This document shows, in pieces, positions 24 through 22,684 of a stretch of 64,000 bases of DNA (its first letter is position 1; each line of letters starts with the position of its first letter). A program made the translations under genes and the position numbers. Under the pieces are notes generated by a model. That model worked only from the letters and a program-made list of their open reading frames with translations. It searched no databases and had not been told where the DNA came from. Origin of the DNA: Acidobacteriota bacterium. GTDB taxonomy: Bacteria; Acidobacteriota; Terriglobia; Terriglobales; Acidobacteriaceae. Location: assembly GCA_013289795.1 (NCBI GenBank), contig JABCZH010000004.1, positions 248,001-312,000 of the forward strand, written 5' to 3'.

Positions 24-977
24 TTATTCTTCCGGGAGGCTACTCTGCACTGCGACCGCCGACGGAGCATAACGCGAGTAGTAATCGCTCGATGCCGCTT
101 CTCGCGAACTGTTTAACAACGCACCGATCAATTTCGATTGTTCAATCGCTTCTAAACCACGTTGCAACTGCTGCTTCTGCGTAGCTCCCTGCCGAGTCAC
201 AAGCAGCACACCATCCGCAAGTCGCGTCCAGATGCTGGTATCGCCCAGTGGGAGTACCGGCGGGGAATCGATCACGATCCAGTCAAACCATGCGGTCAAC
301 TGATCCATTAGGGCGGAGAGGCGGCCCGACTGCATCAGTTCCAAAGGGTTCTTAGGCGAACTGCCCGCCGGCAGGAACCAGCATCCTGGACCTTCTAGAC
401 GATAGATGTTCCGCATGGGGCCGGGTTCGCCCTGCAACCATTCACACAATCCGGGAAGCTTGCCCAGACCAAACATCTGAGACAGTGCCGGCCGCCGCAA
501 ATCTCCATCCAAGAGCAAAACCTTCTGCTGCTGTCTGCGGGCCAAGGTGCAGGCCAAGTTTGCTGCCACCATGCTCTTCCCCTCTTGGGGAATGCTGCTG
601 GTAATTAAGACTTTCTTCAGCAAGCGGTTTTGTCGAAGCTGACGCAAGCGAACACCGAGGAAACGGAATTTTTCTGCGGCTATGCTCTCCCGGTCGACCA
701 AGCTGACAAGGCGGCTCTGCGGAGAAACCACCACCTGCAGCAACGGAAACTGCTCGACGACAGTTGGGCTGGTATCGCTGGTCTCACCTTGCAGGGCGAC
801 GGCGGGCTCGACCACGGACTCATGTTCGACGGCAAGATCATCAACCGGGAACTCACGGACAGCGGACGCTTTCCGCTCCACCGCCTGTATCAGTTCGGTT
901 GCGATGGACAAAGCCGGGCTTTCCTCTCCGGACTGTTCTGCCTCGGACCTTTGTAAAGCGTCAAATATATGGCTCAT
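24..977 (-). CDS. BY-type tyrosine kinase (CpsD/CapB-like) of the EPS operon
   Basis: A 317-residue cytoplasmic autokinase, expected to control polysaccharide polymerisation through cyclic tyrosine phosphorylation together with a Wzz partner. The Walker A motif SSIPQEGKS lies near residues 127-135, Walker A' LLLDGDLRRP at 154-163, and Walker B VIDSPP at 235-240. A tyrosine cluster YYSRY at 299-303 near the C-terminus is the likely autophosphorylation site. The N-terminal 80 residues are acidic and poorly conserved. The protein has no membrane segment, so its activator should be the separate Wzz protein encoded two genes upstream. The ATG lies inside the 3' end of the ATPase gene (17-bp overlap), which suggests translational coupling. 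Last gene of the operon. Confidence 0.9.
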   Translation of the reverse strand: MSHIFDALQRSEAEQSGEESPALSIATELIQAVERKASAVREFPVDDLAVEHESVVEPAVALQGETSDTSPTVVEQFPLLQVVVSPQSRLVSLVDRESIAAEKFRFLGVRLRQLRQNRLLKKVLITSSIPQEGKSMVAANLACTLARRQQQKVLLLDGDLRRPALSQMFGLGKLPGLCEWLQGEPGPMRNIYRLEGPGCWFLPAGSSPKNPLELMQSGRLSALMDQLTAWFDWIVIDSPPVLPLGDTSIWTRLADGVLLVTRQGATQKQQLQRGLEAIEQSKLIGALLNSSREAASSDYYSRYAPSAVAVQSSLPEE

Positions 978-1950
978 GTTTACTCGCGCGAGTTGTCACC
1001 GCCTGGCGCCTTTCAAGTTCGTCCAGCGGCTTTTGCAGATGTGAAACCAAATCGAGCAGGGTCTTGGCGGCGAGGCGGAAGTCCGTTTCCTCGCCCATCA
1101 CCTTGGGCTCTTCGGCATGAAGTTGATGCACTACGCCCAGCCGAAAATCCACGGCAATATCATCAATGATGTCGGGAGTGATGCGGCGTGCCTGACGCGC
1201 ATATCCGGCAATCAGAGCGTTTTCACAGATGGTGTTGATGAGCCGTGGAATCCCCCGGGAATGTTGATAGATGTCCGCAATGGTCTCGATCGGAAATAAC
1301 TCGTGGCCCAGAGAACTCGATCCTGCCAGTTGCAAGCGGCGCTCGATGTATCCCCGGGTTTCATTGGCATCGAGCGGCTCCAGACGCGAGCGCAACGCGA
1401 TCCGTTGTTTGAGCTGTCGGAGTCCAACCGAGTCTAATTTGTCGTCAAGCTCGGGCTGCCCTACCAACAGAATCTGTAGCAGTTTATCGTGGGCTGTCTC
1501 CAGGTTCGTCAGCAGGCGGATCTCCTCAAGAATGTCGGCCGAGAGATGATGCGCCTCGTCCACCACCAAAACGGTGGTTAGCTTCCGTTGGGCACGAGAA
1601 ATGACATACCCACCAAGCTCGAGCAGTAACTCACCTTTGTTCTTGCCCGATGCAGGCAACCCAAAATCGCTGGCGACATATTGCAAGAACTCGACCGGGG
1701 ACAGCCTGCCGTTGAAAATATAGGCATAGGCTACGTCATTGTTCTGCTTGAATAGTTGCAGCAGGCAACGCAAGACCAGGGTTTTCCCCGTGCCCACTTC
1801 TCCGGTTAACACCACGAACCCCTTGTGCCTTCGCACTCCGTAGTAGAGTGACGCCAGAGCTTCGTTGTGTCTCCGGGTGGGAAAAAGAAAAGACGGATCC
1901 GGAGTGATCTCGAATGGATTCCGCTTCAGGCTGTAGAAAGACTTGTACAT
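961..1950 (-). CDS. ExeA-like AAA ATPase of XrtA/PEP-CTERM-type EPS loci
   Basis: A 329-residue AAA ATPase opening with the family signature MYKSFYSLKRNPFEITPDPS. Walker A GEVGTGKT is at 50-57 and Walker B VLVVDEAHH near 127-134. It resembles general-secretion ATPase ExeA and matches in length the ATPase found beside exosortase-linked EPS genes. Its exact role is not established; energising assembly or export of the EPS machinery is the usual assumption. It sits between the Wzz gene (13 bp upstream) and the tyrosine kinase gene (overlapping), so all three are probably made together. The family assignment is firm, the function is inferred. Confidence 0.88.
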   Translation of the reverse strand: MYKSFYSLKRNPFEITPDPSFLFPTRRHNEALASLYYGVRRHKGFVVLTGEVGTGKTLVLRCLLQLFKQNNDVAYAYIFNGRLSPVEFLQYVASDFGLPASGKNKGELLLELGGYVISRAQRKLTTVLVVDEAHHLSADILEEIRLLTNLETAHDKLLQILLVGQPELDDKLDSVGLRQLKQRIALRSRLEPLDANETRGYIERRLQLAGSSSLGHELFPIETIADIYQHSRGIPRLINTICENALIAGYARQARRITPDIIDDIAVDFRLGVVHQLHAEEPKVMGEETDFRLAAKTLLDLVSHLQKPLDELERRQAVTTRASKHEPYI

Positions 1951-1962
1951 TTTAGATGACGC

Positions 1963-3573
1963 CTAGCCGTGCAAATAGCTGAAGGCGGACCCGATCAGGA
2001 TGGTGACCGCTACAAATCCCGCGACTGCCCACCCCAACCAGGTTTTCCTCTTGCTGACCTGTTCGTCGGCTGAGGTCACAATAACCGGGATTTCAGAAAT
2101 TACGGGCACGGGCAACAAGCCTTTGATCTCCGCTTCGCTGTAGGCCCGATCGTCGGCCATCTCGAATGCACCCGCCACCGCCGCCCCCAAGGCTAACCCA
2201 ATCCCCAGCCCCATGCCACAGAACTTCAAGCGGTCGGGGAAGTCGGGTTTCAAAGGCAGGCTGGGTGGATCAAGAATGCGGAAGCGCTCGCCTTGTTGCA
2301 GCAGTTCCATGCTGGTGGCCATGGAGGACTCGGTTTTCTTTTTCAACAGTTCATCGTAGTTCGCCTTGGACTGATCGTAGCCTCGGGTTAAATCCGCCAG
2401 TTGCTGCTCGCGTACCGGCTCCTGGTTGAGTCGCGCCTGGTATTCGCCCACCTTGGCTTTCAGGGTTGCAATCCCCCGTTCCCGGTTCGCAATTTCCGTT
2501 TCGTTCGCCTGCAATTGCCCCTGCAACTGGACCATGGGGGATGCATCGCGAATGTCCGCCGCTGTAACGGGCGCGGCAACGTCCTGGGTGGGGGCCGCGC
2601 TGCCGTCGGCCTTCGCCTTCATACCGGCCATGATCTGATCCCGCATCTTCTCGGTGGTAACGATCTGGTCTTTCAACTTGCGCACATCGGGGTGACGATC
2701 AGTGTAATGGGAACTCATGTCAGCAAGTTGTGCCTTCAGTTTTTCCAGTTCCTGGTCAACCGCCGCGAGACCCAGCGGAGCGCCGTCGGAAGTTTTGGAT
2801 GATCCCTGCAGGGTGCGGTACTGGTTCACCAGGCTTTGCAGGTAAACGTGTTGTTGGCGAGCGCTATTGAGAGCGTCTCCTTCGCTCTGGAGCTGCGACT
2901 GCAGGCCCCCCAGGATCTGAAGATTGGGAGCCAACTGCTCCGGCAATTCGCCCACGTGCTGCGCTTTGAACTCGCGGATCTTATCTTCCTGCGCCGCCAG
3001 AGTTTGCCGGGCGGTCTCCAACTGACCCTCCATGAATTTGGTGGTGTCTTCGGACTGCTGCTGCCGAACTTCAAGATTTTCATTGATAAACAGATTGGTG
3101 AGCTGGCTGGTGACCTGCTGGGCAACGTACGGATCTCGCGCCGAATAAGAGACATTGAAGGCGGTGATTTGGTTGCGGGCATCCCTGACGAGCTCAATCT
3201 GAATGTCCTTGCGCATGCGCTCGATTAGTTCATCGGGGCTGGTACGGGGGCGCTCGGCAGCATAAAGCTTCAACTCATCGATAATATGCAGGAGCCGGGT
3301 CCGGCTGAGAATCTGTTGGGTGATGCTCTGCAACCGCTCCTGCAGGTCGTCGTTGACGTTGGGCGTCACGTAGTCCTTGGGCATGGTCGGCTGTTCCACC
3401 AGAATCAGGGTGCTCGATTTATAGCGGGGCGGCAAAATCCAGCTCGCACTCCATACCGCCAGCCAACCAACAAAAAACGGGATCAGGAAATGGAAGTGGC
3501 GGCGGCGTGCGACTCCCAGGTAGTGTTGAAGATTGAACCCTTCCGAACGTTGCTCGTTGAATTCTTCTGCCAT
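1963..3573 (-). CDS. Wzz/GumC-type polysaccharide copolymerase (chain-length determinant)
   Basis: A 536-residue inner-membrane protein with the Wzz layout: a membrane helix near 29-48, a long periplasmic coiled-coil region (about 70-430), a proline-containing segment, and a second helix near 455-478. A third hydrophobic segment at 514-532 lies after a short cytoplasmic-like stretch. The extra C-terminal helix recalls the long chain-length proteins of exosortase-associated EPS loci. It lacks a kinase domain; the kinase is encoded separately two genes downstream. The ATG at 3573 lies two bases after the stop of the beta-barrel gene. Expected to set polymer length and form the periplasmic part of the export channel. 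Confidence 0.9.
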   Translation of the reverse strand: MAEEFNEQRSEGFNLQHYLGVARRRHFHFLIPFFVGWLAVWSASWILPPRYKSSTLILVEQPTMPKDYVTPNVNDDLQERLQSITQQILSRTRLLHIIDELKLYAAERPRTSPDELIERMRKDIQIELVRDARNQITAFNVSYSARDPYVAQQVTSQLTNLFINENLEVRQQQSEDTTKFMEGQLETARQTLAAQEDKIREFKAQHVGELPEQLAPNLQILGGLQSQLQSEGDALNSARQQHVYLQSLVNQYRTLQGSSKTSDGAPLGLAAVDQELEKLKAQLADMSSHYTDRHPDVRKLKDQIVTTEKMRDQIMAGMKAKADGSAAPTQDVAAPVTAADIRDASPMVQLQGQLQANETEIANRERGIATLKAKVGEYQARLNQEPVREQQLADLTRGYDQSKANYDELLKKKTESSMATSMELLQQGERFRILDPPSLPLKPDFPDRLKFCGMGLGIGLALGAAVAGAFEMADDRAYSEAEIKGLLPVPVISEIPVIVTSADEQVSKRKTWLGWAVAGFVAVTILIGSAFSYLHG

Positions 3574-3575
3574 GA

Positions 3576-4976
3576 TTATCTTCCCAACGGCCGCGCAAAC
3601 TGATAGGAAATGGACACCGACTCCATATTGGTATCGGGTGCGGTGCTGATCGCCGCGATGCCACTGTAACTCTGGTGCAGCCGTGTGTATCCCGCCGTTG
3701 CGCTCAGATGCTGGCCCAAAGTTCTTTGAATGGATGCACTTCCAGAAATCGAGTGACCTCCGGGATTGGATAGGAAGAAGAGCGGGGTCACCGTCTTATT
3801 GATCGCATACGCCCCAGACACACCGGCGTTCCAATTCTTGCTTAACTGCTGCCGCACCGACAGGTTTGCCGTGTTTGAGTGAAAGGCTCCCAGCAGTCCA
3901 CCACCCCCCGATACCATTCGCGAATAGCTGGCCGCCAGGTTGGTATGACGTGCTTGCCATCCCATGCTGGCAGTCGCTGCGGGCGACCATGACTGTGCGG
4001 CCGACAACGGGGCCTGTTCAACGTCGTAATGCTGCGGCCCCGCGGAGACCGAGAGCGAAAGCGTAGGCTGCGGATAAAACGTATAAAACCCCAAGACCGC
4101 GTGGGTTTGGGTCTCGTCCTGGGACGCCCCGTTCGGATACGTCAGTATTCTCTGGTATTGATAAGACGCGCCGATGTAATGCTTCTTCGACAAGCGGTGA
4201 GAATAGAACGCCGACCCTCCCTGCGAACTGGAGTCAAACAGCCCGGGAACCTGCGTCGAGTTCGAGTAATGCAGATTGGTGAAGGTCCCGCTCGCACCGA
4301 TCATTCCATTGGCACTGAATTGATAGGTGATCTCTGGACTGCCATTGTTGTTGAGCTGATCCGCAAGCGGCGCTACTACCGCGATTCCCACACCCTGCAA
4401 ACCACCCGTCACCGCGCCGGCCGATGCCAGATCCGGCTGGTCCAATACGCTGGAAGACTTCTGAAATGTGTCTCGCAAGCTCAGAGTCACGTGCGGGCTC
4501 AAACGGTAGGTGAAATTGATGGAAACATTCTGGTTTTCCTGGTTCCGCGAACTCACGCGCTGATAGAACGTGAAGCCCGGACTGTAGCTGAGAACCCAAT
4601 GCAGACGCGAAGTGGTTTCGTCCAAGGCAATATTAGGAAAAATCGAATAGCTCACATCACTCACAGGATTGGCCGTTATTCCCCCCAAGACATTGTCGCT
4701 GTATGCCGTGGTGAAAGTTAATCCGCCGCGCAGGTAATTGGACCGTTCCTGTGCCGTATATGTACTTGGATAAGCGGCTCCGCTTACCGGAGGAGGAACT
4801 TGCATGCGGTCTTCCACCGTGGCCGGAGTTGCAGTATTGTCCGTGACCGCCGTCGCGTTATCCGTGCTCGGAGGAACGGTGTTCGCGGTTGGCGCGTTAT
4901 TCACCTGCGACCATAGCGGTACGCCAGCCATCAGTACGATACTCAACCCAGCCTGTTTCAAGATGCGTAAATTCAC
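3576..4976 (-). CDS. EPS-operon outer-membrane beta-barrel protein
   Basis: A 466-residue protein with an N-terminal signal peptide (hydrophobic core 10-20, probable cleavage after WSQ) and a Thr/Pro/Ala-rich linker to about residue 70. Then comes a long series of amphipathic strands rich in aromatic residues, typical of a transmembrane beta-barrel; the protein ends with the strand SVSISYQFARPL. Barrels of this size sit at the same position in exosortase-linked EPS loci (PEP-CTERM-associated outer-membrane family), and I infer a role in polymer passage or anchoring. The start is a GTG overlapping the stop of the export-protein gene (GTGA, 4 bp), indicating translational coupling. Confidence 0.8.
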   Translation of the reverse strand: MNLRILKQAGLSIVLMAGVPLWSQVNNAPTANTVPPSTDNATAVTDNTATPATVEDRMQVPPPVSGAAYPSTYTAQERSNYLRGGLTFTTAYSDNVLGGITANPVSDVSYSIFPNIALDETTSRLHWVLSYSPGFTFYQRVSSRNQENQNVSINFTYRLSPHVTLSLRDTFQKSSSVLDQPDLASAGAVTGGLQGVGIAVVAPLADQLNNNGSPEITYQFSANGMIGASGTFTNLHYSNSTQVPGLFDSSSQGGSAFYSHRLSKKHYIGASYQYQRILTYPNGASQDETQTHAVLGFYTFYPQPTLSLSVSAGPQHYDVEQAPLSAAQSWSPAATASMGWQARHTNLAASYSRMVSGGGGLLGAFHSNTANLSVRQQLSKNWNAGVSGAYAINKTVTPLFFLSNPGGHSISGSASIQRTLGQHLSATAGYTRLHQSYSGIAAISTAPDTNMESVSISYQFARPLGR

Positions 4977-5602
4977 GGGACGACGATGGTGTCGCGGGGC
5001 TGCAATTTAATGTTCTGTGCAGAATCGTGGCCCTTGACCACGTTCTTATAGTTGAAGGGGAGACGGGTGGTGGTGCCGTCCGGATTCTGCCGCAGGATAT
5101 AGATGGACTTCTGTTTAGCGAAATCACGGAAGCCACCGGCGATGGCGATCGCGTCCAACACCGTCTGCGAATTGGTCAGCGGATAGGCACCCGGCTTGGC
5201 GACCTGCCCCAGAACGTTGTATTTCTGGCTGTTGATCTGCTGGACCATCACGGTCACTTCGGCGTCAGCAATGTAGCTTTTCAGCCGGGCCGCGATGTCT
5301 TGTTCGAGACTCAAGGGGGTGCGTCCGGTGGCTTGCACTTCGCCAACCAGGGGCAGCGATATTTTGCCATCAGACCGCACCGGAATTGCCTTTTGTGAGA
5401 CGTCTGGTTCCTTCCAAACGTTGATCGTGAGAATATCGTCGTTGCCAATCACAAAACTGTTGTCGTGTGGCTTGCTGGCATTAACATCTGAAGGCGGCGT
5501 TGACGGCGGCGGCGCTGAACCGGCCTGCGCCCACAACCAAGTGGACAGGAGCGGGCCAACGAACAGTAGTCCAAGCCACTTCACTCCAAGGTTGTTCTTC
5601 AT
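4973..5602 (-). CDS. Wza-like polysaccharide export protein
   Basis: A 209-residue exported protein. The signal peptide ends near AQA at 25-27; there is no lipobox cysteine, unlike classical Wza. A Poly_export domain spans about 48-120, starting at VIGNDDILTINVW, and includes the conserved DGKISLPLVGEV segment. A single SLBB domain follows (about 128-205), containing GQVAKPGAYPL. The protein is shorter than Wza and lacks the C-terminal outer-membrane helix, so it probably works with the beta-barrel protein encoded immediately downstream. It lies 49 bp after the regulator gene in the same operon. Confidence 0.9.
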   Translation of the reverse strand: MKNNLGVKWLGLLFVGPLLSTWLWAQAGSAPPPSTPPSDVNASKPHDNSFVIGNDDILTINVWKEPDVSQKAIPVRSDGKISLPLVGEVQATGRTPLSLEQDIAARLKSYIADAEVTVMVQQINSQKYNVLGQVAKPGAYPLTNSQTVLDAIAIAGGFRDFAKQKSIYILRQNPDGTTTRLPFNYKNVVKGHDSAQNIKLQPRDTIVVP

Positions 5603-5651
5603 ATTCGCTCCGAGCGGTCGCGAGTGAATGCCATGGGTGGACCGATCTTGC

Positions 5652-7190
5652 TCAGCTTACCCTGCCGTTGCTCTTAAAGCCATTGCCATTTGTCTTGGTG
5701 CCATTGCCCCCCGCGAACGGGGCAGCATCCGAGGCGTGCATGTGATACTGCTCGATTTTGTAGAGCAGAGTCCGATAGCTGACCTTCAACAAACGCGCCG
5801 CCGCTTTGCGGTTCCAGCCGGTTTTGTCGAGGGCCGCGGCAATTGCGTTTCTCTCCGCTTCCAGCTTCACACTTTGAACCAGCGACTTCAAGGAGCCCAG
5901 GTTCGACCGGGTGGTGCCAGCGTCGTTCCCAGGGAAGTGTGGTTCAATTCCTCGCTCGAATGAACCGGCCTCGAAATTTTCACGGCCTTGCGCACGCTCG
6001 CCCAGTGCCAGGTTCTTGTCCCCCATCACTAGGTAGCGCTTCACGAAACTCTCCAACTCTTTCAGGTTTCCCGGCCACGAATGGGCCTGGCAGGCATCGA
6101 GAACAGAAGCTGAAAAGGCGCGTGGCTGAAGGTTGTAACGCTTGGCCAGATGATGCATGAAGTGCTGCGCCAACAACGGAATCTCGTCCCTACGCTGGCG
6201 CAACGGCGGGACATGGATAGTAAACGCGCTCAGCCGGTAGTAAAGGTCTTCCCGCAGTCTCCGCTCAAAAACCGTGCGCTCATCGCCGGCCGTGACCGTG
6301 GCGATAATTCGCACATCCACGTCCACCATCGCTTCACTGCCCGGACGGGCAAACTGTTTGTTCTGCAGGATCTGGATCAGCTTGGCCTGCTGTTCCGCCG
6401 GCATTTCGGCAATCTCATCCAGCAGAATCGTCCCCTTGTCACACAGCTCGAACTTGCCCCCTTTGGCTCGTGAAGAGTTGTTGGAAGTGTCGTGCTCATG
6501 ACCGAAGAGTTCACTCTCCAGAAGGTCTTCGGGGAGCGCCGCACAATTCACTTTGACAAACGGGAACCCGGATCGGATGGACAATTTGTGAATCAGGTGC
6601 GCCACCGTGTCCTTCCCGCTTCCGCTCTCTCCCAGGATCAGGACTGGAACATTGGCCTCTGCCAGCAATTCAGCCTGGGCGCGAAGCTTGCGCATCACCG
6701 GACTGGCGCCGACAAAGAAGGCTTCTGCGCTCAACTGCTCAACGTCTTCGCTGCTGATGTCGTCTCCCGAGTGGGGATGGGTCGAAAACAAATGTCGCCG
6801 AAGGACTTGCTCCAGTTGTCGGTCTTCCACCGGCCGGACCAGATAGTCCTGTGCTCCCAGGCGAATCGCTTCCCTTTCCCGGCCGGCGTCCTCGGGGTAG
6901 GCAATTAGAATGATGGGCAATTCCGGACGCAGCCGGCGCAGCCACCGCAAAATGTGCAGGCTGTCGCCGTCGCCCCGTGGCAAGTCCAGCAGAAGCAGGT
7001 CGGGCGTGGCGCCGGATTGCACTCGCTCCATGGCGTCCCAGCCGCTACCGGCGGTTTCCAGGTGCCAGGAATTGGATTCGCTGATCGACCACAGCGGCCG
7101 CAGAACCGCGGACTCACGGCTCACGACAAGAAGACGGGTTGTTTCGATTGCGTTTTCTGCCACGGGATTAGTGGCTCCTTTGAAAGACAC
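5652..7190 (-). CDS. NtrC-family regulator (receiver-AAA-Fis) lacking GAFTGA
   Basis: A 512-residue protein with three parts. The receiver-like domain (about 17-133) has a candidate phospho-acceptor Asp69 in LLLLDLPRGD, but the usual acidic pair is replaced by VVSRES and the conserved Lys by Arg (YLVRP). The AAA domain (about 157-400) has Walker A GESGSGKD at 187-194 and Walker B GTILLDEI at 253-260. The Fis-type helix-turn-helix is near 440-482. Where GAFTGA is expected after ESELFGHE (about 232-242) the sequence reads HDTSNNSSRAKGG, so the sigma-54 contact loop is missing. It resembles PrsR, the regulator of PEP-CTERM EPS loci, in domain order. The GTG at 7190 is used here; GTG 7163, with GGAG 11 bases upstream, is an alternative. 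Confidence 0.87.
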   Translation of the reverse strand: MSFKGATNPVAENAIETTRLLVVSRESAVLRPLWSISESNSWHLETAGSGWDAMERVQSGATPDLLLLDLPRGDGDSLHILRWLRRLRPELPIILIAYPEDAGREREAIRLGAQDYLVRPVEDRQLEQVLRRHLFSTHPHSGDDISSEDVEQLSAEAFFVGASPVMRKLRAQAELLAEANVPVLILGESGSGKDTVAHLIHKLSIRSGFPFVKVNCAALPEDLLESELFGHEHDTSNNSSRAKGGKFELCDKGTILLDEIAEMPAEQQAKLIQILQNKQFARPGSEAMVDVDVRIIATVTAGDERTVFERRLREDLYYRLSAFTIHVPPLRQRRDEIPLLAQHFMHHLAKRYNLQPRAFSASVLDACQAHSWPGNLKELESFVKRYLVMGDKNLALGERAQGRENFEAGSFERGIEPHFPGNDAGTTRSNLGSLKSLVQSVKLEAERNAIAAALDKTGWNRKAAARLLKVSYRTLLYKIEQYHMHASDAAPFAGGNGTKTNGNGFKSNGRVS

Positions 7191-9820: not shown

Positions 9821-11545
9821 CTACGTTACTGTAAAAACCTCCGAACTCGTAGCCGTTCCATCTGGAGTGGTAACCGTGATCGGGCCGGTCTTTGCGCCGG
9901 TCGGAACCGTGGTGGTGATTTCGGTGTCGGAGTTGACGGTAAACGTGGCCTTCACGCCACCGAAGGTGACCCTGGTCGCGCCGGTGAAACTCGTGCCGTT
10001 GATCGTTACCGGTGTACCGACCGTACCGCTCATCGGGCTGAAGGTCACGATATGAGGAAGAACACGGAATGGCCGGTTGCTGGTCAGCGTGCCACCGGGC
10101 GTAGTCACAGTTACCGTGCCCGGAGTCGCACCGGACGGAACCACCGCCGTCAGGTAGCTGTCGGCAACCACGGTGAAGGTGCTTGCTGCGGTCCCGTTGA
10201 AGGAAACTGCCGTAGTTCCGGTAAGTCCCTGACCAAGGATTTCGACGGTCTGTCCTACAATACCGTACCAGGCGACCAAGTTGGCATACGGTTTCAATTT
10301 CATATCCAGGCTGAAGAAAACGCCTGTATTGATGTTGCCGCCATTTTGAGTCTGTCCGTATAGAGTCCCATTGGTGGCCTGAAACAGTGTGCCTTTGGGA
10401 TAAGAGCCTGTGGTCGAGTCGAAATTGTACAGAACAGTGTACTGGCCACTCGGTGTGAGTTGGAAGATGACTCCATACGCTTTGCTGCCGCCGCCTACTG
10501 TGACGCCATAGAAGTTGCCGTCGGTCCCCTGCACCAGGCCGCCGTAAGGGACGCCCCCATCCGTGCAACCGGGTTGGTTGCAGAAGCTATAAAGCACGCT
10601 GTACTTGCCCGCCGGGGTGATCTTGAACGCGACGCCCTCGCGGAAGCCCCCTGTGCCAAGGCCACCGGCGGAGGTCGTCCCATAGAAACTCCCGTCCGAG
10701 CCTTGTACAAGCCCGTCGTAAGGATTGAACCCATCGTTGCAGTTCACTTGAGCACAGAAGGTGTAGAGAACTGTGTACTTGCCGGCGGATGTTATTTTAA
10801 AAATTACGCCGCCGTTCACAAACGTATTCCCGATCGAGCCTCCGAGCGCAGTGGTCCCATAGAAATTGCCGTCGGTTCCCAGAACCAGGGGGGAATCAGA
10901 ATTCGCGCCATCCGTGAGCTGTTCGAATGTATGGATGACTTTGTACTTTCCGGAAGGCGTGATCCTGTAGATGACGCCGCACCCGCCGTTCAAGTACGTG
11001 CATTTGGAAATGTCTCCTCCTTCGCTTGCGGTGCCGTAAAAATTGCCATCCATACCTTGCACGGGTGGTGCAATAGGAGTGTTTCCATTGACCTGGTTAG
11101 TGCCGCCAAAGACGTTAAAGTCGAATACCTTGCCGGCTGAGGTCATGCCAAAGATGGTCCCTACTTGATCAGAACCGCCGGCCTCAGTCGTACCCCAGAA
11201 CCCTCCATCGGTTCCCAGCGTCAGGCCGCTGAAGGGAAAGGCTCCGTCTCCCGTTTGCGTCAGGAAGCTGTGCAATACGGTCACCTTCCCTCTTGGTGTG
11301 ATCTTGAACGCGGTACCGCCCGAGTCACACCCCCCGTTTGGGCTTGTGCTGTATAGGTTGCCATCGCGTCCCTGCGCGATGACGCCTGTATTCTCAGGGG
11401 TAAGCGGATCGCACTTGACGTTCCCAAAGTTGTATAGCACGGTGTAGGTTTGGGCGTGGAGCGCGGTCGCCACTGTGGCGAGCGCCAAGCCAAGCAACAA
11501 ACCGACCAGCTTGGGATTAGGGGTCAAACTCCTGATTCGATTCAT
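9821..11545 (-). CDS. Secreted GloVer-repeat protein with two IPT/TIG domains
   Basis: A 574-residue exported protein. The signal peptide has a hydrophobic core at 14-30 and a probable cleavage after LHA. About seven Gloeo/Verruco repeats follow (about 33-405), each with a G-x-D-G-N-(F/L)-Y-G-T-T core and a (V/I)-F-K-I-T-P-(S/A)-G-K-Y segment. Two IPT/TIG immunoglobulin-like domains follow (about 410-490 and 493-574). Such proteins are probably beta-propeller-like surface or secreted proteins; no enzymatic motif is visible. A strong AGGAGG sequence precedes ATG 11545. Divergent from the winged-helix kinase gene at 11704 and convergent with the LuxR-type gene. Confidence 0.85.
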   Translation of the reverse strand: MNRIRSLTPNPKLVGLLLGLALATVATALHAQTYTVLYNFGNVKCDPLTPENTGVIAQGRDGNLYSTSPNGGCDSGGTAFKITPRGKVTVLHSFLTQTGDGAFPFSGLTLGTDGGFWGTTEAGGSDQVGTIFGMTSAGKVFDFNVFGGTNQVNGNTPIAPPVQGMDGNFYGTASEGGDISKCTYLNGGCGVIYRITPSGKYKVIHTFEQLTDGANSDSPLVLGTDGNFYGTTALGGSIGNTFVNGGVIFKITSAGKYTVLYTFCAQVNCNDGFNPYDGLVQGSDGSFYGTTSAGGLGTGGFREGVAFKITPAGKYSVLYSFCNQPGCTDGGVPYGGLVQGTDGNFYGVTVGGGSKAYGVIFQLTPSGQYTVLYNFDSTTGSYPKGTLFQATNGTLYGQTQNGGNINTGVFFSLDMKLKPYANLVAWYGIVGQTVEILGQGLTGTTAVSFNGTAASTFTVVADSYLTAVVPSGATPGTVTVTTPGGTLTSNRPFRVLPHIVTFSPMSGTVGTPVTINGTSFTGATRVTFGGVKATFTVNSDTEITTTVPTGAKTGPITVTTPDGTATSSEVFTVT

Positions 11546-15023: not shown

Positions 15024-17720
15024 TTACGGCGCGACCAGAAACTTTCGATTGCTCGTAAGCGTGCCTAGGGACGTGGTCACGTCCACAAACCCAGTGGTCG
15101 CACCTGCTGGTACGCTGCTCGTGATTAAGGAACCTGAGGCCACGTTGAAGGCAGCCGGAGTCCCGTTAAACGTGAGGCTGGTCGCGTCCGTCAGATCGGT
15201 TCCCAGAATCCCGACTCCAGCTCCAACCCTGCCGGAGGCAGGCAGCGTTGTCACAAACGGGTCCAGACCTACGGACAAACTGAATACCGTCCCATCGTTA
15301 TTGGCGCCGCCAGACGGCGTTGTCCCGTAGAACGTCCCATTGGTGTCCTGGAGCAGCGTGGCTTGAGGGAAGGCGCCGTCCGGGCAATTGCTTTGGGCGC
15401 AAAAGTTGTAAAGAGTCGTCAGCGTGCCGCTCGGGGTGATTCTAAAGATGGTGCCATGACCGTTCACGCCGAAAGAGATTGTTGTCCCGTAAAAATTCCC
15501 ATCAGCGGCTTGGACCAGCGCGGCCTCAGGGCCGGCGCCGTCCGGGCAACCGTTTTGGGGGCAAAAGCTGTACAGGCTCGTCAGCCTGCCGTTTAGAGTG
15601 ATTTTGAAGACGGTCCCGAGAGCGTTGACTCCGCCCGAGAACGTTGTCCCGTACAACTTCCCATCGGCGCCTTGGACCAGCCCGGCGTCAGGCTTGGCGC
15701 CGTCCAGGCAACCGCTTTGGGCGCAAAAGCGATAAACAGTCGTCAGTGTGCCACCTAGGGTCATCTTGAAAACTGTGCCATCGTCGTTGTCCCCGCCCAG
15801 GTGGGTTGTTCCGTACAAATTCCCATCGGTGGCCTCGACCAGATCCCCTTCGGGGCTGGAGCCGTCGTTGGAAGAGCCGAAGTCGTGAAGCTTGGTCCAT
15901 GTGCCGCTTGGGGTGATCTTGAAGACCGTGCCCACACTGTTGGCCCCGCCCTGGAAGGTTGTCCCGTACAAATTCCCATTGCTGGCCTGGATCAACGCGT
16001 GGTTAGGCCCTTGACCGTCGGTGCAACCGCCTTGCGAGCAAAAACTGTAAAGCGTCGTCAGCCTGCCGTTCAGAGTGATTTTGAAAACGGTGCCGCCGCC
16101 GTTGGCTCCGCCCCCAGACGTTGTTCCGTACAAATTCCCATTGGTGGCCTGAACCAGCGTCGCGTAAGGGCTCGCGCCGTCCGGACAACCGCTTTGGGCG
16201 CAAAAGTTGTAAACCGTCGTCAGTGTGCCGGTAGGGGTGATTTTGAAGACCGTGCCATTGTTGAAGGCCCCGCCCGCGGACGTAGTCCCGTAGAGGTTCC
16301 CATTGACGGCCTGGACCAGTCCCGCGTAAGGGGTGGCGCCGTCGGTGGAATTGAAGCTGTGCAGTGGGGTGAGCTTCGGCGGCAGCACGAACACGTAAGC
16401 TGCTCCCATGAAAGCACCCTTGTTGCGAGCTCCCACCACCGCTGTCGAGCCGGAGATGGCTACCGAGAGCCCGAAAGCGTCGCCCGAGGTGCCGTCGGAG
16501 GCAGTGAGTTCATCCTGCTGCGTCCAAGTCGTCCCCGAACGCATGAACACATAGGCCGCCCCGACAGTGTTACCGCCGAGGGCTCCCGCCACCGCGGTGG
16601 AACCGGAGCTGGCTACCGAGGTGCCGAACGCGTCTTGCGGAGCACCGTCGGAGGCGGTCAGCTCGGCCTGCTGCGTCCAGGTCGTCCCCGAGCGCACAAA
16701 CACGTAGGCCGCCCCAGTGCTCGAGTTCTTGCCGGGGGCTCCGGCCACCACGGTAGAGCCCGACACGGCCACGGAGTAGCCGAGGCCGTCGTCCGCAACA
16801 CCATCGGAGGCGGTAAGCTCGGCCTGCTGCGTCCAAGTCGTCCCCGAACGCACGAACACGTAGACTGCGCCGAAGCTGACGTTGTAGCCGATGGCTCCGA
16901 CCACCGCGGTGGAATCGGAGATGGCCACGGAAACGCCGAAGAGTTCGCCCGTAACAGTGTCGGAAGCGGTGAGCTCCGCCTGCTGAGTCCAAGTCGTCCC
17001 CGAACTCACGAACACGTAGGCCACTCCGGCGAGGAAGTTCTTGCCCTCGGCTCCTACCACCGCGGTGGAGCCGGAGATGGCTACGGAGATGCCGAACGCG
17101 TCGCCCCCGGCACCGTCGGAGGCGGTGAGCTCCGCCTGCTGAGTCCAAGTCGTCCCCGAGCGCACGAACACGTAGGCGGCCCCGGTGTAGGAGTTCTTTT
17201 CGTAGGCCCCCACCACCGCAGTAGAACCGGAGATGGCTACGGAGAAGCCGAACTGGTCGTTCGGAGCGCCGTCGGAGGCGATCAGCTCTGCCTGCTGGGT
17301 CCAAGTCGTCCCCGAGCGCACGAACACGTAGGCCGCCCCATTGGTCAAGTTCTTGCCGGGGGCTCCCACGACCGCGGTGAAACCGTCGATGGCTACCGAG
17401 GTGCCGAAGAGGTCGTTAGGACCGCCGTCGGAGGCAGTGAGTTCGGCCTGCTGGGTAGCGCCCGGGGCCTTGTTGATTCGCCCGAGCTTGGCTCGCACGG
17501 CCGCCCGCAGCGACGCCGGCGCTTGGGCCAGAGTCATTGGGGAGGCAGACGCCGAGCGCCATGTCGGTGCCGACGGCAGAACCCGTTGCGCCGAGGTGGA
17601 TGCGATGAAGCGGGACCCGACCTGATTTCGACTGTCCTGCGCGGCCAGCCGGAGCGGCACAGCCAGCGTCGCAACGAATACAGTCATCGCTGTAATCAAA
17701 ACTAATGTCCTGGATTTCAT
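15024..17720 (-). CDS. Secreted FG-GAP / GloVer hybrid repeat protein with IPT-like end
   Basis: An 898-residue exported protein. The start was placed at ATG 17720 because a perfect AGGAGG precedes it and a signal peptide follows (SRTLVLITAMTVFVATLAVP, cleavage near LAAQ). After a linker come seven near-identical 52-residue FG-GAP-type repeats (about 90-450), each with SGTTWTQQAELTASDG and (F/L)GxSVAxSGSTAVVGA cores. Seven GloVer repeats follow (about 452-810) with GNLYGTT and GTVFKIT cores, then a C-terminal IPT/TIG-like domain (about 815-898). Two different putative propeller arrays are joined in one chain. No catalytic motif is seen; adhesion or matrix structure is only a guess. A TTGACA promoter lies about 100 bp upstream. 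Confidence 0.85.
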   Translation of the reverse strand: MKSRTLVLITAMTVFVATLAVPLRLAAQDSRNQVGSRFIASTSAQRVLPSAPTWRSASASPMTLAQAPASLRAAVRAKLGRINKAPGATQQAELTASDGGPNDLFGTSVAIDGFTAVVGAPGKNLTNGAAYVFVRSGTTWTQQAELIASDGAPNDQFGFSVAISGSTAVVGAYEKNSYTGAAYVFVRSGTTWTQQAELTASDGAGGDAFGISVAISGSTAVVGAEGKNFLAGVAYVFVSSGTTWTQQAELTASDTVTGELFGVSVAISDSTAVVGAIGYNVSFGAVYVFVRSGTTWTQQAELTASDGVADDGLGYSVAVSGSTVVAGAPGKNSSTGAAYVFVRSGTTWTQQAELTASDGAPQDAFGTSVASSGSTAVAGALGGNTVGAAYVFMRSGTTWTQQDELTASDGTSGDAFGLSVAISGSTAVVGARNKGAFMGAAYVFVLPPKLTPLHSFNSTDGATPYAGLVQAVNGNLYGTTSAGGAFNNGTVFKITPTGTLTTVYNFCAQSGCPDGASPYATLVQATNGNLYGTTSGGGANGGGTVFKITLNGRLTTLYSFCSQGGCTDGQGPNHALIQASNGNLYGTTFQGGANSVGTVFKITPSGTWTKLHDFGSSNDGSSPEGDLVEATDGNLYGTTHLGGDNDDGTVFKMTLGGTLTTVYRFCAQSGCLDGAKPDAGLVQGADGKLYGTTFSGGVNALGTVFKITLNGRLTSLYSFCPQNGCPDGAGPEAALVQAADGNFYGTTISFGVNGHGTIFRITPSGTLTTLYNFCAQSNCPDGAFPQATLLQDTNGTFYGTTPSGGANNDGTVFSLSVGLDPFVTTLPASGRVGAGVGILGTDLTDATSLTFNGTPAAFNVASGSLITSSVPAGATTGFVDVTTSLGTLTSNRKFLVAP
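15250..16374 (-). repeat. Seven-copy GloVer repeat array in the hybrid gene
   Basis: Tandem coding repeats of roughly 50-55 codons with strongly conserved cores for the Tyr-Gly-Thr-Thr and Val-Phe-Lys-Ile-Thr segments. Related to the array in the 9821-11545 gene. Confidence 0.75.
16375..17453 (-). repeat. Seven-copy 156-bp FG-GAP-type tandem repeat
   Basis: Seven direct coding repeats of 52 codons in the hybrid gene, well conserved at the DNA level. They keep a long antisense frame open on the plus strand, which is not a gene. Copy number is likely to be unstable by slippage or recombination. Confidence 0.8.
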
Positions 17721-17810
17721 TGTGCCTCCTCTGCGTTCGCGTAGAAGCGAGCGCCCCGGTTCAGGTCGGACCACCGGGAAGGACAGGGGTGGGTGCGCCT
17801 GAACGCGATA

Positions 17811-18372: not shown

Positions 18373-18861
18373 CTAGTTCCTGGCGAGCCGGCGGCGTTGT
18401 TTCCCGGCGAGCAATATCCCCGCGAACAGCGCCAGTCCGGATGCCGCCAGGTAGGAGAGTTGGGTGCCACCTTCGGGCGCCAGCGTGTCGTATTGGAAAT
18501 ATCCCTCGCTGCGCCCCTTCGTTATGCTTCCGTACGCGTCATAGGTGCCGGTCAACGGGTTGAACACGATGGTATACGCAATGGTGTCGCCGTCAACTTT
18601 CTTGTCGAACGTAAAAATATCTCCGTGTTGCGGCTTGGTGATCGTCACGGAAACTCCGTTGAAGATACCCCCGACGAACGTCAGCGTCTCTTTGGTAAAC
18701 GTGTCTGTCTTCGTGTTGTAGTCGAAGGTTGCTGTCAGGGTTGTGTTAGACCCACCGGTCACGTTCGTAGAGTAGTCGAACTCGGTGACGGAGCCTGCGA
18801 ACGCGCTCATTGAAAACGCGATCACGCAAAACGCAAGGCCGAACTTGAGATAGAACTTCAT
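18373..18861 (-). CDS. Small secreted protein with PEGG-type C-terminal sorting-like tail
   Basis: A 162-residue protein. The N-terminal signal peptide starts MKFYLKFGLAFCVIAFSMSA with cleavage near AFA/G. A beta-rich middle of about 100 residues is rich in Thr, Asp and Gly. The C-terminus has APEGGTQLSYL, a hydrophobic helix, and the basic end KQRRRLARN. This tripartite tail is the layout of PEP-CTERM-type signals, which exosortases cut after moving the protein across the inner membrane. ATG 18861 is preferred to GTG 18882, because the GTG would lie only about 7 bases after the predicted transcription start. The mature function is unknown. It resembles the next gene only in its tail. Confidence 0.78.
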   Translation of the reverse strand: MKFYLKFGLAFCVIAFSMSAFAGSVTEFDYSTNVTGGSNTTLTATFDYNTKTDTFTKETLTFVGGIFNGVSVTITKPQHGDIFTFDKKVDGDTIAYTIVFNPLTGTYDAYGSITKGRSEGYFQYDTLAPEGGTQLSYLAASGLALFAGILLAGKQRRRLARN

Positions 18862-18895
18862 ACTGTCTACAGGGATCGACACTGCACCGTTGTCG

Positions 18896-18923
18896 AGTTT
18901 ACAGCCCCGGCTCGTGCTGTCAA
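18896..18923 (-). promoter_or_regulatory. Sigma-70-type promoter of the first PEGG-tail gene
   Basis: TTGACA (18918-18923 on the minus strand), a 16-base spacer, then TAAACT (18896-18901), ending 35 bp before the chosen ATG. Confidence 0.5.
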
Positions 18924-19096
18924 GGCTGCGAAATTATGCATACCTTGCAAATTCTTGCAACATGCACCTAACGACCTATCTATCAGATAGTTGGCAGGGT
19001 GTCGGCGCGCTTCCAAATCTGCCTCTGGCAGTAGGTCTTCTTCTATCCGGAAGAGACTGTGGAAAACCACGAAGAAAACTTTGGGTGGACTGGAAA

Positions 19097-19120
19097 GTGC
19101 TCCTGCAGCAGCAGGAGCAC
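19097..19120 (-). terminator. Terminator hairpin after the second PEGG-tail gene
   Basis: A perfect 10-bp GC-rich inverted repeat (GTGCTCCTGC / GCAGGAGCAC) with a 4-base loop, starting 18 bases after the stop codon at 19139. Only TTT follows on the minus strand, so it is a short-U-tract terminator candidate. Confidence 0.6.
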
Positions 19121-19138
19121 ATCGTGAACTCTCGCTGA

Positions 19139-19861
19139 CTAGACCGTCGTCACTCGTGCATCAATCTGGGGTCGGGAGCGGAACTTGATAGCCGCCAAAC
19201 ATGCGAGCGTGGTGAGCAGCAGGTACATCAGTGTTGATCCGCCTTCTGGCGCCGAGATGAATCCAAAGAATTCCTGCGGCGGTGTGGTGGGGCACGATCC
19301 TCCATTGCAGGTGATCGAATGACTCAAGTCAGGCGTGTAGATAAAGAAATTGGCAAACTCACCGGGGGTGAACTGTTGCCCCGCGGCGGAATTCAGCCAG
19401 CCCTGCACCGCCAGCCATGCCGCTGAGTTCGCGCCTAGCCAGCTCTTGACCGCGTTGGGTTGAAACACCGCCCAGAGAGCGTATGCCAGGTAGCCGACTT
19501 GAGTTGCGTTTCCGGAATAGGTTGGAGAAAGCATTTGTGTGGCCAGCCATGCGGCTTCGTCGTACAGCTGGGTGGCATTCGCCATACTGCCCCACTTGGT
19601 GCCGTTCAGGTTCGAGAGTGTGGTGACATTGGCTGTCCACGACTCGCCCACGTAGCTGTCATCGACAAAATCATCGCAGATGATTTGCGCAGATTGGCCG
19701 TTGACCGTTGCGGTGTACGGCCCGACGTAGACTCCGTCCATTACGTTGCTCCCCGCGCTGGTCAAAGTGATATTGACCTGACCTTGGCCCAAAGCAACGG
19801 GCGCGAAGCACAGAAGCATAGCCCCCATGGCCAACCACAGACTGCGACCCGTTCGCATCAT
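19139..19861 (-). CDS. Secreted protein with PEGG-type C-terminal sorting-like tail
   Basis: A 240-residue protein. The signal peptide (core LWLAMGAMLLCFAPVALG) cleaves near residue 26. The folded middle is rich in Trp, Tyr and Asn and contains one apparent disulfide pair in SITCNGGSCP plus ICDDFVDD. The C-terminal tail has APEGGSTLMYLLLTTLACLA and then a basic segment KFRSR. The tail shares A-P-E-G-G-(S/T)-x-x-x-Y-L with the neighbouring gene, fitting a variant PEP-CTERM signal; ten residues follow the basic patch, more than usual. Two adjacent ATGs (19861, 19858) follow GAGGAG. It has its own promoter (19964-19991) and terminator (19097-19120), so it is probably monocistronic. Function unknown. 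Confidence 0.78.
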   Translation of the reverse strand: MMRTGRSLWLAMGAMLLCFAPVALGQGQVNITLTSAGSNVMDGVYVGPYTATVNGQSAQIICDDFVDDSYVGESWTANVTTLSNLNGTKWGSMANATQLYDEAAWLATQMLSPTYSGNATQVGYLAYALWAVFQPNAVKSWLGANSAAWLAVQGWLNSAAGQQFTPGEFANFFIYTPDLSHSITCNGGSCPTTPPQEFFGFISAPEGGSTLMYLLLTTLACLAAIKFRSRPQIDARVTTV

Positions 19862-20377
19862 CTACTCTCCTCTAATAAACAATCGTGGATCAGTGAGCTG
19901 CATTGGGGGGAAATGCTGGAGGGAGGGCTCAGTTCATCCGCAACTTCTACTGCCACGGTCTCCACTCTAACCCAACCGTGGGGGTTGTCAAGAATGATAA
20001 TTTCTGCGACCACGTTGCAAGCTGCTGCAACCACTAAAGTGCCACACCCGCCAACTGACTGTCGTCGATATCGCGTTTCTGGCAATGGCATATACCACAC
20101 ACATATACAAAGACTTAACAAACTCGACAGACTTTCGTTTCTCACGTCTACATGAAAGGCTCCTCTCCCTAACAGCCGTTAGTCTCTAGTTATCATATCC
20201 GCGGTTATTGACGGCGGCTCCTCTCTTCTTGAACGAGCCTGCAACCAGGCGCAGTGCCCTCCTTATTAGGTACAAATGGTAGCGCACAGGTCCCGCGAGG
20301 CACTGCTTGTACAATCCCGCCCTTGGTACTTCGGGGCCAGCGGGTTCTAACGAGGTTGCGCGTACACTGTGGAAGAT
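19862..20377. other. Divergent intergenic region
   Basis: About 515 bp between the PEGG-tail gene and the plus-strand TPR lipoprotein gene. It contains the minus-strand promoter at 19964-19991. A TACAAT at 20310-20315 could be the -10 of the TPR gene, but its -35 is poor. No small gene is supported. Confidence 0.4.
19964..19991 (-). promoter_or_regulatory. Sigma-70-type promoter of the second PEGG-tail gene
   Basis: TTGACA (19986-19991 on the minus strand), a 16-base spacer, TAGAGT (19964-19969), about 100 bp before the ATG. Confidence 0.5.
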
Positions 20378-22684
20378 ATGTTCAGGTTTTCTTCTTCTCG
20401 TCTGATTCTCTTTCTTTATTGTGCACTCGCCGCGACTACATTTTCTGGATGTTCACGTGACCCCAACGTGCGCAAGCTCAAGTATTTTGAAAGTGGCCAG
20501 CATTATTTTCAACAAGGCAAGTATTCCGAAGCTGCGGTCCAGTTCCTGAACGCCACCCGCGTCGATCCCGCCTACTCCGAAGCCCACTATCAACTCGGGC
20601 AAAGTTATTTGAAGATGCAGCAATGGTCGCCGGCGTACCAGGAGTTCGCACGCACCGCCGAACTAGACCCGGGCAATTGGCAAGCGCGCCTCGATCTGAC
20701 CAAACTGCTGATTGCCGGTAATAGCCTGCAGCAGGCGCAGGAGCAAGTGGATCTGCTGCTCAAGAAATGGCCGAACCAATGGCAAGCGCATGTGATGGCT
20801 TCCACCCTGCTGACCGCACGTGAAAACATCCCCGATGCGATTGTGGAAATGCAAAAGGCCATCACGCTCGAACCCGGTCGCTCCGATTCATACTTGACGC
20901 TGGGCATCTTGCAACAGAAGAACAATCAGCCAGATGCTGCTGAAGTGAGCTTCAAGAAAGCCATCGACCTCGAACCCAAATCCGCGCCTGCTCAGTTAAT
21001 GCTGGGCAGCTACTACCAATCGCGCGGCCGCTGGAACGACGCCGAGAAACAGTTCAACGACGCTATCGCCTCGGATCCTACCAATCCCGGGGCGCGGGGC
21101 GCCATGGCCAGGCTTTACCTGGAAGAAGGCAAGAAGGAAGCCGCCGTAGATTTTCTGCGACGGGCCAAGCGTGACTTCCCCGACAACTCGATTGGCTACC
21201 GCCTGCTGGGCGACTTTTTCTTCGCCACCGGGGACATGGATCAGGCCACGACAGAGTACGGGACTCTTTTGCAAGAGCACCCCAAAGACCTTCTGGTGAA
21301 GAAGAATTACGTTCAACTCCTGATCCTGAAAGGCCGCCTGGCAGAAGCTGGGAAATTGAATGACGAGGTTTTGAGCGCGAATCCCAAAGACACCGACGGC
21401 TTGGTCAACCGCGGCCAGATACAGATTCAAAACGGCAGCCTGAACGACGCCAGTTCCACGCTGCAAGCGGCGACGCAGAACGATCCCGAGAACGCCCTCG
21501 CCCACTACTACTTCGGGATTGCACTGGAGAAATCCGGCAACTCTGGACGTGCGGAGACAGAGTGGAGAGAGGCTCTGCGCCTCCGTCCCAACTTGGTGGA
21601 CGCACAAAGAAACCTGGCCGGAGTGGCCTTGCGCAAGGGCGACATGCCGGCGCTCGAAATGGCCGCCACTCAGATCATCAATCTGCAACCCTCATCGCCG
21701 GACGGCTACGCCCTGCGCGCCATTTCCATGATCAACCGCAGCCGCCTCAAGGATGCCGAGGAGGATGTACGCAAGGCCATCGCAGTCGCGCCCCAGAGTC
21801 CGCTGGGCTACGTGCAATTGGGGAGCTTGCGGTTTGTTCAGAAGCAATATGACCAGTCGGGCAAGGCCTACCAGGACGCCTTGGGTCGCGATGTCAACTC
21901 CAGCGACGCTCTGCGCGGACTGATCAACACCTTTCTGGTACAGGGCCAGATCGACAAAGCCATTGCTGCAGCAAAAACGCAAATCGCCAAGGCACCCGCC
22001 AATGGCAGCTTCTACGATTTGCTCGGCACCGTACTTTTTAAGAATAAGCGAGACTTGAACGGCGCCGAGGACGCATTACAAAAGTCTGTCCAGATCGATC
22101 GCAACTCTGATGCTTTGATCAAGCTGGGTGAAGTGCAGGCCGCCAAGGGAGAAGTGGACCAGGCCATCACCACCTATCAACAAGCCATCAAGGAGCACCC
22201 GCGCAATGCCAGCTTCAACATCCTGCTAGGGGAGCTCTACGAATCCAAACGCGATTGGAAGCAGGCTCAGGCCGCCTACCAGGCAGCTGTGGACGTGGCT
22301 CCCAATGATCCCCTCGCCTCCAACAATCTAGCCAATGTGATGCTGCGCCTGGGGGGTAATCTGGATGTGGCCATGGCGCTGGCGAAGACCGCGCGCCGCG
22401 GCATGCCTGATTCTGCGGATGCGGCTGACACAGTGGGCTGGGTCTACTACCAGCAGGGAGCTTATCAATCTGCAATTGACATGTTTCAGGAAGCACTCAG
22501 GCTGGCGCATAACAATAGAGGTCCTGATGACCCTAACGTGCACTATCACCTCGCGCTGGCCTATGCGAAAACCAGGCAGTCCGGCCTGGCTCGGCAGCAC
22601 CTGGAGCGTGTGCTCCAGATCAGCCCTAACTACAGTGATGCGGACGACGTCCGCCGGCAGTTAGCCCAACTGCAGCGGCCGTGA
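20378..22684 (+). CDS. TPR-repeat lipoprotein (PrsT-like)
   Basis: A 768-residue lipoprotein. The signal peptide ends in a lipobox TFSGC with the lipidated Cys at about 25. TPR units then run almost to the C-terminus, beginning KYFESGQHYFQQGKYSEAAV and including many A-x-x-x-Y/F-x-x-A-I/L helix pairs. Size, lipidation and repeat content match the TPR lipoprotein (PrsT) that accompanies exosortase/PEP-CTERM EPS systems, but large TPR lipoproteins also occur elsewhere. ATG 20378 was preferred to GTG 20369 because the signal peptide then has a normal length. Probably a periplasmic scaffold for polymer or protein export. Confidence 0.82.
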   Translation: MFRFSSSRLILFLYCALAATTFSGCSRDPNVRKLKYFESGQHYFQQGKYSEAAVQFLNATRVDPAYSEAHYQLGQSYLKMQQWSPAYQEFARTAELDPGNWQARLDLTKLLIAGNSLQQAQEQVDLLLKKWPNQWQAHVMASTLLTARENIPDAIVEMQKAITLEPGRSDSYLTLGILQQKNNQPDAAEVSFKKAIDLEPKSAPAQLMLGSYYQSRGRWNDAEKQFNDAIASDPTNPGARGAMARLYLEEGKKEAAVDFLRRAKRDFPDNSIGYRLLGDFFFATGDMDQATTEYGTLLQEHPKDLLVKKNYVQLLILKGRLAEAGKLNDEVLSANPKDTDGLVNRGQIQIQNGSLNDASSTLQAATQNDPENALAHYYFGIALEKSGNSGRAETEWREALRLRPNLVDAQRNLAGVALRKGDMPALEMAATQIINLQPSSPDGYALRAISMINRSRLKDAEEDVRKAIAVAPQSPLGYVQLGSLRFVQKQYDQSGKAYQDALGRDVNSSDALRGLINTFLVQGQIDKAIAAAKTQIAKAPANGSFYDLLGTVLFKNKRDLNGAEDALQKSVQIDRNSDALIKLGEVQAAKGEVDQAITTYQQAIKEHPRNASFNILLGELYESKRDWKQAQAAYQAAVDVAPNDPLASNNLANVMLRLGGNLDVAMALAKTARRGMPDSADAADTVGWVYYQQGAYQSAIDMFQEALRLAHNNRGPDDPNVHYHLALAYAKTRQSGLARQHLERVLQISPNYSDADDVRRQLAQLQRP

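Follow-up and report, generated by a model that had tools for sequence, protein, structure and literature searches.

A PEGG C-terminal tail and a stand-alone exosortase clade as a probable protein-sorting pair in Acidobacteriaceae

PEP-CTERM and related C-terminal signals share one tripartite build, in which a signature motif is followed by a hydrophobic helix and a basic end, and are processed by exosortases. EpsH, the exosortase of the PEP-CTERM/XrtA system, is a polytopic, mainly helical membrane protein with eight helices, and the PEP-CTERM genes of proteobacteria have been reported to be under sigma-54 regulation. The portion of the 2006 description of EpsH cited here names an invariant Cys, an Asn-x-x-Arg and a His-x3-Gly, and includes Cys-Xaa-Gly among its three invariant motifs (PMC1569441). 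Cited sections of later reports describe GlyGly-CTERM/rhombosortase pairs as dedicated one-target systems with adjacent genes (PMC3237569), and PGF-CTERM/archaeosortase A as an example of a C-terminal cut with lipid attachment (PMC9263693, PMC3237569).

Here we present a C-terminal tail, PEGG, which is nearly restricted to genomes carrying one clade of exosortases and very probably forms a protein-sorting pair with it. The analysis began from a window of 64,000 nucleotides (the whole stretch of DNA analysed, to which the positions below refer unless a contig or locus is named). An earlier note, made from the letters of this window, had proposed that two adjacent secreted proteins carry a variant sorting signal and that another part of the genome encodes an exosortase dedicated to it. 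The features concerned are the following.

18373..18882, minus strand: exported protein 1, PEGG-tailed; 169 aa when read from the GTG at 18882
18376..18480, minus strand: PEGG tail 1, APEGGTQLSYL, then a hydrophobic stretch, then KQRRRLAR; full tail APEGGTQLSYLAASGLALFAGILLAGKQRRRLARN
19139..19861, minus strand: exported protein 2, PEGG-tailed; 240 aa, with a CDD[FY] motif in its mature domain
19142..19252, minus strand: PEGG tail 2, APEGGSTLMYL, then a hydrophobic stretch, then RSRPQIDAR; full tail APEGGSTLMYLLLTTLACLAAIKFRSRPQIDARVTTV
20369..22684, plus strand: PrsT-like TPR protein (TIGR02917, 366.7 bits against a cut-off of 312.2)
24..7190, minus strand: co-directional XrtA/PEP-CTERM-type exopolysaccharide-like operon, all XrtA-type models below their cut-offs
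G000:C4:171660-172556 (contig 4), outside the window and about 75 kb to its left: PEGG-clade exosortase (PF09721)

Compared with the described systems, this pair recalls PEP-CTERM/XrtA (EpsH) in its signal peptide, its tripartite tail, its co-distributed exosortase with Cys, Arg and His, and the exopolysaccharide genes in the vicinity of several enzyme loci. It differs in the signature, PEGG-x3-Y instead of PEP, in the separate tails seen where both systems coexist, in the one or two PEGG proteins that were found in most genomes, and in its enzyme, which scores 134.4 bits against the XrtA model (TIGR03109), below the cut-off of 208. The best NCBIfam match of the enzyme is XrtC (TIGR04151), the exosortase of VPDSG-CTERM, at 160.5 bits, but this also lies below the cut-off, here 300, and seven tails scanned gave no VPDSG-type model match over cut-off. 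With GlyGly-CTERM the tail shares a tripartite build containing Gly-Gly, whereas its enzyme belongs to a superfamily other than that of rhombosortase and the GlyGly-CTERM model of NCBIfam matched none of the seven tails. Archaeosortase A is distantly homologous to the enzyme, although the PGF-CTERM system is archaeal and uses another signature. A literature search returned no paper on a PEGG tag, an earlier mention being possible in the 2012 archaeosortase/exosortase paper, and the lone match for PEGG together with exosortase was an author name. A new exosortase/sorting-signal pair is the best reading of tail and clade; its enzyme and substrate are sharply defined, and none of the family models searched names it.

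Both window proteins have N-termini that resemble signal peptides, called by eye as for all tailed proteins here, and both end in APEGG[S/T]-x3-YL, a hydrophobic stretch and basic residues, in agreement with the earlier note. Their mature parts, which it had described as unrelated, share nothing in a BLASTP comparison beyond APEGG and chance-level pieces. Protein 1 probably starts at an ATG at 18861, which gives 162 aa and a more usual signal peptide (MKFYLKFGLAFCVIAFSMSAFA); it is homologous to a PEGG-tailed protein of genome G472 (36% identity over 157 columns). As a whole sequence, protein 1 matched no NCBIfam or Pfam family at E<=0.1, and protein 2 likewise had no model in either collection that names it. 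The domain of protein 2 models well (score 85.7), and a fold search of the PDB with it found nothing at E<=0.001. The pairing gives these two family-less proteins a likely fate.

The genome of origin (G000) comprises 4.67 Mb and is 99.9% complete. A DNA scan of it with CCNGARGGNGGNWSN, a pattern for PEGG plus S/T-like codons, gives 16 sites, and the same pattern reversed as a control gives 20. At 2 of the 16 the signature leads into a hydrophobic segment, basic residues and a stop codon, and these two are the window proteins. An HMM built from four tails (A1), with both window tails in its seed, scored these two at 70.6 and 67.7 bits and everything else in the genome at 13.5 bits or less. The earlier note had held that a lack of further tailed proteins would speak against its proposal; the window pair are indeed the sole carriers found, which we do not count against the pairing because most genomes with the system show only one or two PEGG-tailed proteins. 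When seven tails were scanned alone, no NCBIfam model exceeded its cut-off except for one marginal LPXTG match, and no Pfam model did so, PF07589 (PEP-CTERM) included. Judged by sequence, the tail has a PEP-CTERM-like build and lies outside the family models scanned.

The PEGG tag is broader than the two window tails imply. An alignment of 29 tails, with at least one from each of 27 genomes, has E-G-G-x4-Y in all 29 and the preceding P in 27 (it is sometimes A); E-G-G is followed by S, T, A or D, and many tails have a Cys midway along the hydrophobic part. The consensus reads [V/A/S/T]-P-E-G-G-[S/T/A]-x3-Y-L, then a hydrophobic helix and a basic end. A script cut the list of tails at EGG, and the HMM matches behind it were not selected for EGG. 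The alignment excludes one remnant, from G539, that is degenerate and has no EGG (27.1 bits); a partial second match in G520 (31.9 bits) and a second match in G591 (34.2 bits) stand outside the tails read, and matches below about 24 bits were taken as chance after some had been inspected.

Exactly one PF09721 exosortase is encoded in the genome, scoring 142.9 bits against a family cut-off of 25.7. In relatives, XrtA-like enzymes score above 200 bits on this model and the others, to which the present enzyme belongs, at most 185. Its confident AlphaFold2 model (mean pLDDT 92.7) is helical except for three short strands; searches for a solved relative, by sequence (E<=1) and by fold against the PDB (E<=0.001), found none. 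A pattern scan with the exosortase across a genome collection of 84,980 species found nine loci, eight of them 34-42% identical and the nearest named one, from an Acidobacteria MAG, 50% identical; plasmid records held distant exosortases only (six records, 27-33% identical).

Tail and enzyme were sought in the same genomes, as the earlier note had suggested, and were found together. In a sample of 399 genomes of the class, searched with the enzyme and with A1, tail matches at E<1e-6 occurred in five genomes (G000, G028, G284, G335 and G424), which are exactly those with an exosortase more than 50% identical to ours (5/5 against 0/394). Three of these (G284, G335, G424) gave strong tail matches though they are outside the HMM seed. 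The next-best exosortases in this sample are at most 43% identical, and the next-best tail match (E 2e-4) lies in an unrelated protein. In 300 genomes of the family, searched with the enzyme and with a seven-tail HMM (A2; threshold E<1e-4, at most 25 first-look candidates per genome being scored), tails were present in 27 genomes of 9 genera: 25 of the 29 genomes with an exosortase of the clade, against 2 of the 271 others. When the six seed genomes are omitted, the figures become 19 of 23 and 2 of 271. A Fisher test gives 4e-30, or 5e-24 once the six seed genomes are set aside; as the genomes are related to one another, their counts are not independent, and the values are to be read with this in mind. 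The picture is the same in a tree of 62 exosortases: a clade of 30 rows (support 98/96) contains all 26 rows from tail genomes, and the 32 rows outside it contain none. The tree was built without six of the 68 sequences, which were truncated, broken or too distant (G520, G590, the second copy of G539, G505, G034 and G005). The 271 other genomes include 11 with an enzyme match that is unplaced in the tree, either fragments (G505, G520, G590) or matches of at most 40% identity (G024 by its XrtA-like copy).

This near-restriction has exceptions in both directions. The two tail genomes outside the clade are G520, with a truncated copy of the enzyme, and G595 (93% complete), in which an XrtA-type enzyme was the only exosortase found. 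The earlier note had also reasoned that genomes with the tail and no exosortase at all would undo its proposal; all 27 tail genomes have an exosortase. Conversely, a 29-tail HMM (A3) found no clear PEGG tail in four clade genomes: G474, G446 and G547, where its best E values range from 0.04 to 1.1 (G547 is 98% complete), and G434, which has a broken enzyme gene and a PEP tail 4 kb from it. Contamination reaches 6-7% in four tail genomes. In each of five genera (g7, g9, g29, g33 and g34) some genomes have the pair and others lack it; within the listed members of these genera tail and enzyme travel together, barring G595, G547 and the fragmentary G590.

Residue conservation separates what is general to exosortases from what marks the clade. 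All 54 exosortase rows share Cys187, Asn229, Arg232, His253 and Gly257. At position 189, two residues on from Cys187, all 26 PEGG-clade rows have Ser, whereas the other related rows have Gly (17/24) or Ser (7/24) and the XrtA rows Gly (4/4); besides the tree exclusions, G434 was dropped from these counts, and seven further rows belong to neither group. As Ser also occurs in 7 of 24 other related rows, the Gly of Cys-Xaa-Gly does not define all PF09721 members. By the features tested, except for this Gly, the enzyme classifies as an exosortase.

A large separation exists between the PEGG pair and the PEP-CTERM/XrtA system. XrtA-type enzymes occur in 16 of the 27 tail genomes, every one of which has PF07589 tails above the cut-off; of the 11 with no XrtA found, nine have no PF07589 match over the cut-off, among them the genome of origin, which has none even at E<=0.1. 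The remaining two, G605 and G610, have 4 and 5 PF07589 matches with no XrtA found, so that the separation is not perfect. G446 combines a clade exosortase and XrtA with neither a PEGG tail nor a PF07589 match; since a genome with XrtA would here lack its PEP-CTERM tails as well, absence in this 84% complete draft proves little. A separate exception to the usual pairing is G026 (97% complete), with 17 PEP-CTERM matches and no PF09721 exosortase found.

The domain of protein 2 can be followed across both systems. Searching 150 genomes of the family with an alignment of it (A4) gave 36 matches in 28 genomes; 30 loci were read, yielding 28 distinct proteins with a readable tail (a homologue in G463 is cut off and its tail unreadable). 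Four of the 28 end in EGG tails and 24 in PEP tails. The four with EGG tails come from G000, G451, G485 and G498, and XrtA was found in none of these genomes, whereas in G484 and G497, which have both enzymes, the domain carries a PEP tail and PEGG stands on other, tiny proteins. One mature domain with either tail, together with the natural controls provided by genomes in which only the PEGG exosortase, only XrtA, or both were found, makes exosortase specificity testable.

We consider it highly probable that the PEGG tail is a C-terminal sorting signal read by a stand-alone exosortase clade that is related to, and distinct from, XrtC and XrtA. The proposal of the earlier note is in this respect supported by the single PF09721 enzyme of the genome and by the co-occurrence of tail and clade. 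The steps from cleavage to final location can be modelled on exosortases and archaeosortases. The signal peptide would export the PEGG protein, and the tail would hold it in the inner membrane; the exosortase, with Cys187, Arg232 and His253, would cut, on the outer face of that membrane, at E-G-G or close to it, passing through a thioester step as in the exosortase literature; and the cut protein would be handed to an acceptor, probably becoming linked to exopolysaccharide or to the outer surface.

An alternative account would be a plain C-terminal membrane anchor of common descent that is read by no enzyme. A hydrophobic helix with basic residues can anchor by itself, and a local duplication could give two neighbours the same tail. 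It is nevertheless quite improbable, given that E-G-G-x4-Y is invariant in 29 aligned tails on unrelated mature parts, that the tails track one exosortase clade across 9 genera, and that the protein 2 domain is found with either type of tail. Still less probable, in our judgement, is that XrtA or a general exosortase handles PEGG as a weak PEP-CTERM variant. The 16 tail genomes with XrtA, among them G595 with no other exosortase found, would fit such an arrangement, but no XrtA was found in 11 tail genomes, the genome of origin included; no strong tail match occurs in the 394 class genomes that lack an enzyme of more than 50% identity; and PF07589 matches neither the seven tails scanned nor anything in this genome.

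Enzymes from outside the exosortases were weighed as well. An LPXTG-type sortase might be suggested by three of the seven tails, which come near the cut-off of the LPXTG anchor model (14.6, 15.3 and 16.1 against 15.9 bits), and by the one sortase of the genome of origin. The tails are without an LPXTG motif, though, and a PF04203 sortase turned up in only 7 of the 27 tail genomes but in 4 of the 6 tail-less genomes used for comparison, so this candidate was dropped as extremely improbable. We regard a rhombosortase-like rhomboid protease that reads Gly-Gly, as in GlyGly-CTERM, as equally far-fetched: the Gly-Gly of the signature, mostly followed by Ser, is reminiscent of the SGGS given for GlyGly-CTERM in the cited part of that report (PMC3237569), but the lack of a GlyGly-CTERM model match in the seven tails argues against such a protease, which would also leave the co-occurrence with the exosortase unexplained.

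The cargo of the PEGG tail is varied and often very small, which raises the question of what is delivered. By eye, the 29 tailed proteins comprise 14 micro-proteins, 4 Gly/Cys-rich proteins of 129-148 residues, 9 proteins with the CDD[FY] domain and 2 resembling protein 1. Between signal peptide and tag, the micro-proteins have only about 10-30 residues, which are polar, basic, His-rich or Cys-rich, and in 14 of the 27 tail genomes the sole tail read sits on such a protein. Ten related micro-protein tails show 259, 67 and 544 differences at codon positions 1, 2 and 3 (pairwise sums); the excess at third positions is as expected of coding genes. The micro-protein ORFs, at loci L112, L137, L139, L154, L155, L157, L158, L159, L161, L163, L166 and L167 and at L023:11072-11419 and L025:9889-10146, measure 68-149 residues as listed and are easily missed in annotation. 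Sigma-54-type sites upstream of the 29 tail genes were no commoner than in shuffles, and sigma-54 control of these genes is accordingly unsupported.

Twelve of the 14 micro-proteins come from genomes that also have XrtA, whereas 10 of the 11 carriers with the CDD domain or resembling protein 1 come from genomes in which no XrtA was found, the exception being that of G595. The kind of cargo thus goes with the enzymes present. A tentative and rather doubtful extension is that the clade serves mainly to mature exported micro-peptides, as an enzyme dedicated to them, and that larger proteins take the PEGG tail for the most part where XrtA has been lost. If so, a short peptide would either be set free or become attached, at the cell surface or on exopolysaccharide, and the product would be a cap, a linker or a signal, not a folded surface protein.

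Linkage between tail and enzyme is partial. On the same contig, 0.1-6.1 kb separate the two in 11 of the 27 tail genomes, and 43-95 kb in four more; small PEGG-tailed proteins lie 0.4 and 0.9 kb from the enzyme in G022 and G028, and the linkage counted for G539 is to a broken second exosortase copy. That copy (L208:6695-7581) lies 1.3 kb from a micro-protein gene, and an intact one is present elsewhere in G539.

In the window, the PrsT-like TPR gene is the divergent neighbour of protein 2 and forms associated context. The operon at 24..7190 encodes a kinase, a TIGR03015-like ATPase, a TIGR03007-like chain-length protein, an unmatched protein, a TIGR03027-like export protein and a sigma-54 response regulator. 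No XrtA-type exosortase was found in this genome by the PF09721 search, and the PEGG exosortase may have taken the place of XrtA alongside this operon. Two further proteins of the window, at 9821-11545 and 15024-17774, consist largely of GloVer tandem repeats (TIGR03803) and have neither PEGG nor PEP tails.

Around the enzyme, 23 of 31 loci (the 30 rows of the clade plus G442) have, no more than 6 kb away, members of a cluster of exported proteins that look fibronectin-III-like by eye (4 of 42 members viewed, up to four being viewed for every neighbour cluster), and sugar-nucleotide genes occur near several loci. Together, these neighbours give the PEGG enzymes a link to exopolysaccharide that resembles that of known exosortases. 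The flanking fibronectin-III-like proteins are exemplified by L013:10952-11650 and 12549-12983 and recur at 22 other exosortase loci; in the genome of origin one such gene overlaps the exosortase start by 8 bases, and the single flanking protein scanned had CbhB as its only match (28.5 bits). A small protein ending in SY(W/F/V)FHK(T/M)GHHKLER...L(A/T)HR also recurs near the exosortase, at L013:10082-10738 and seven other loci.
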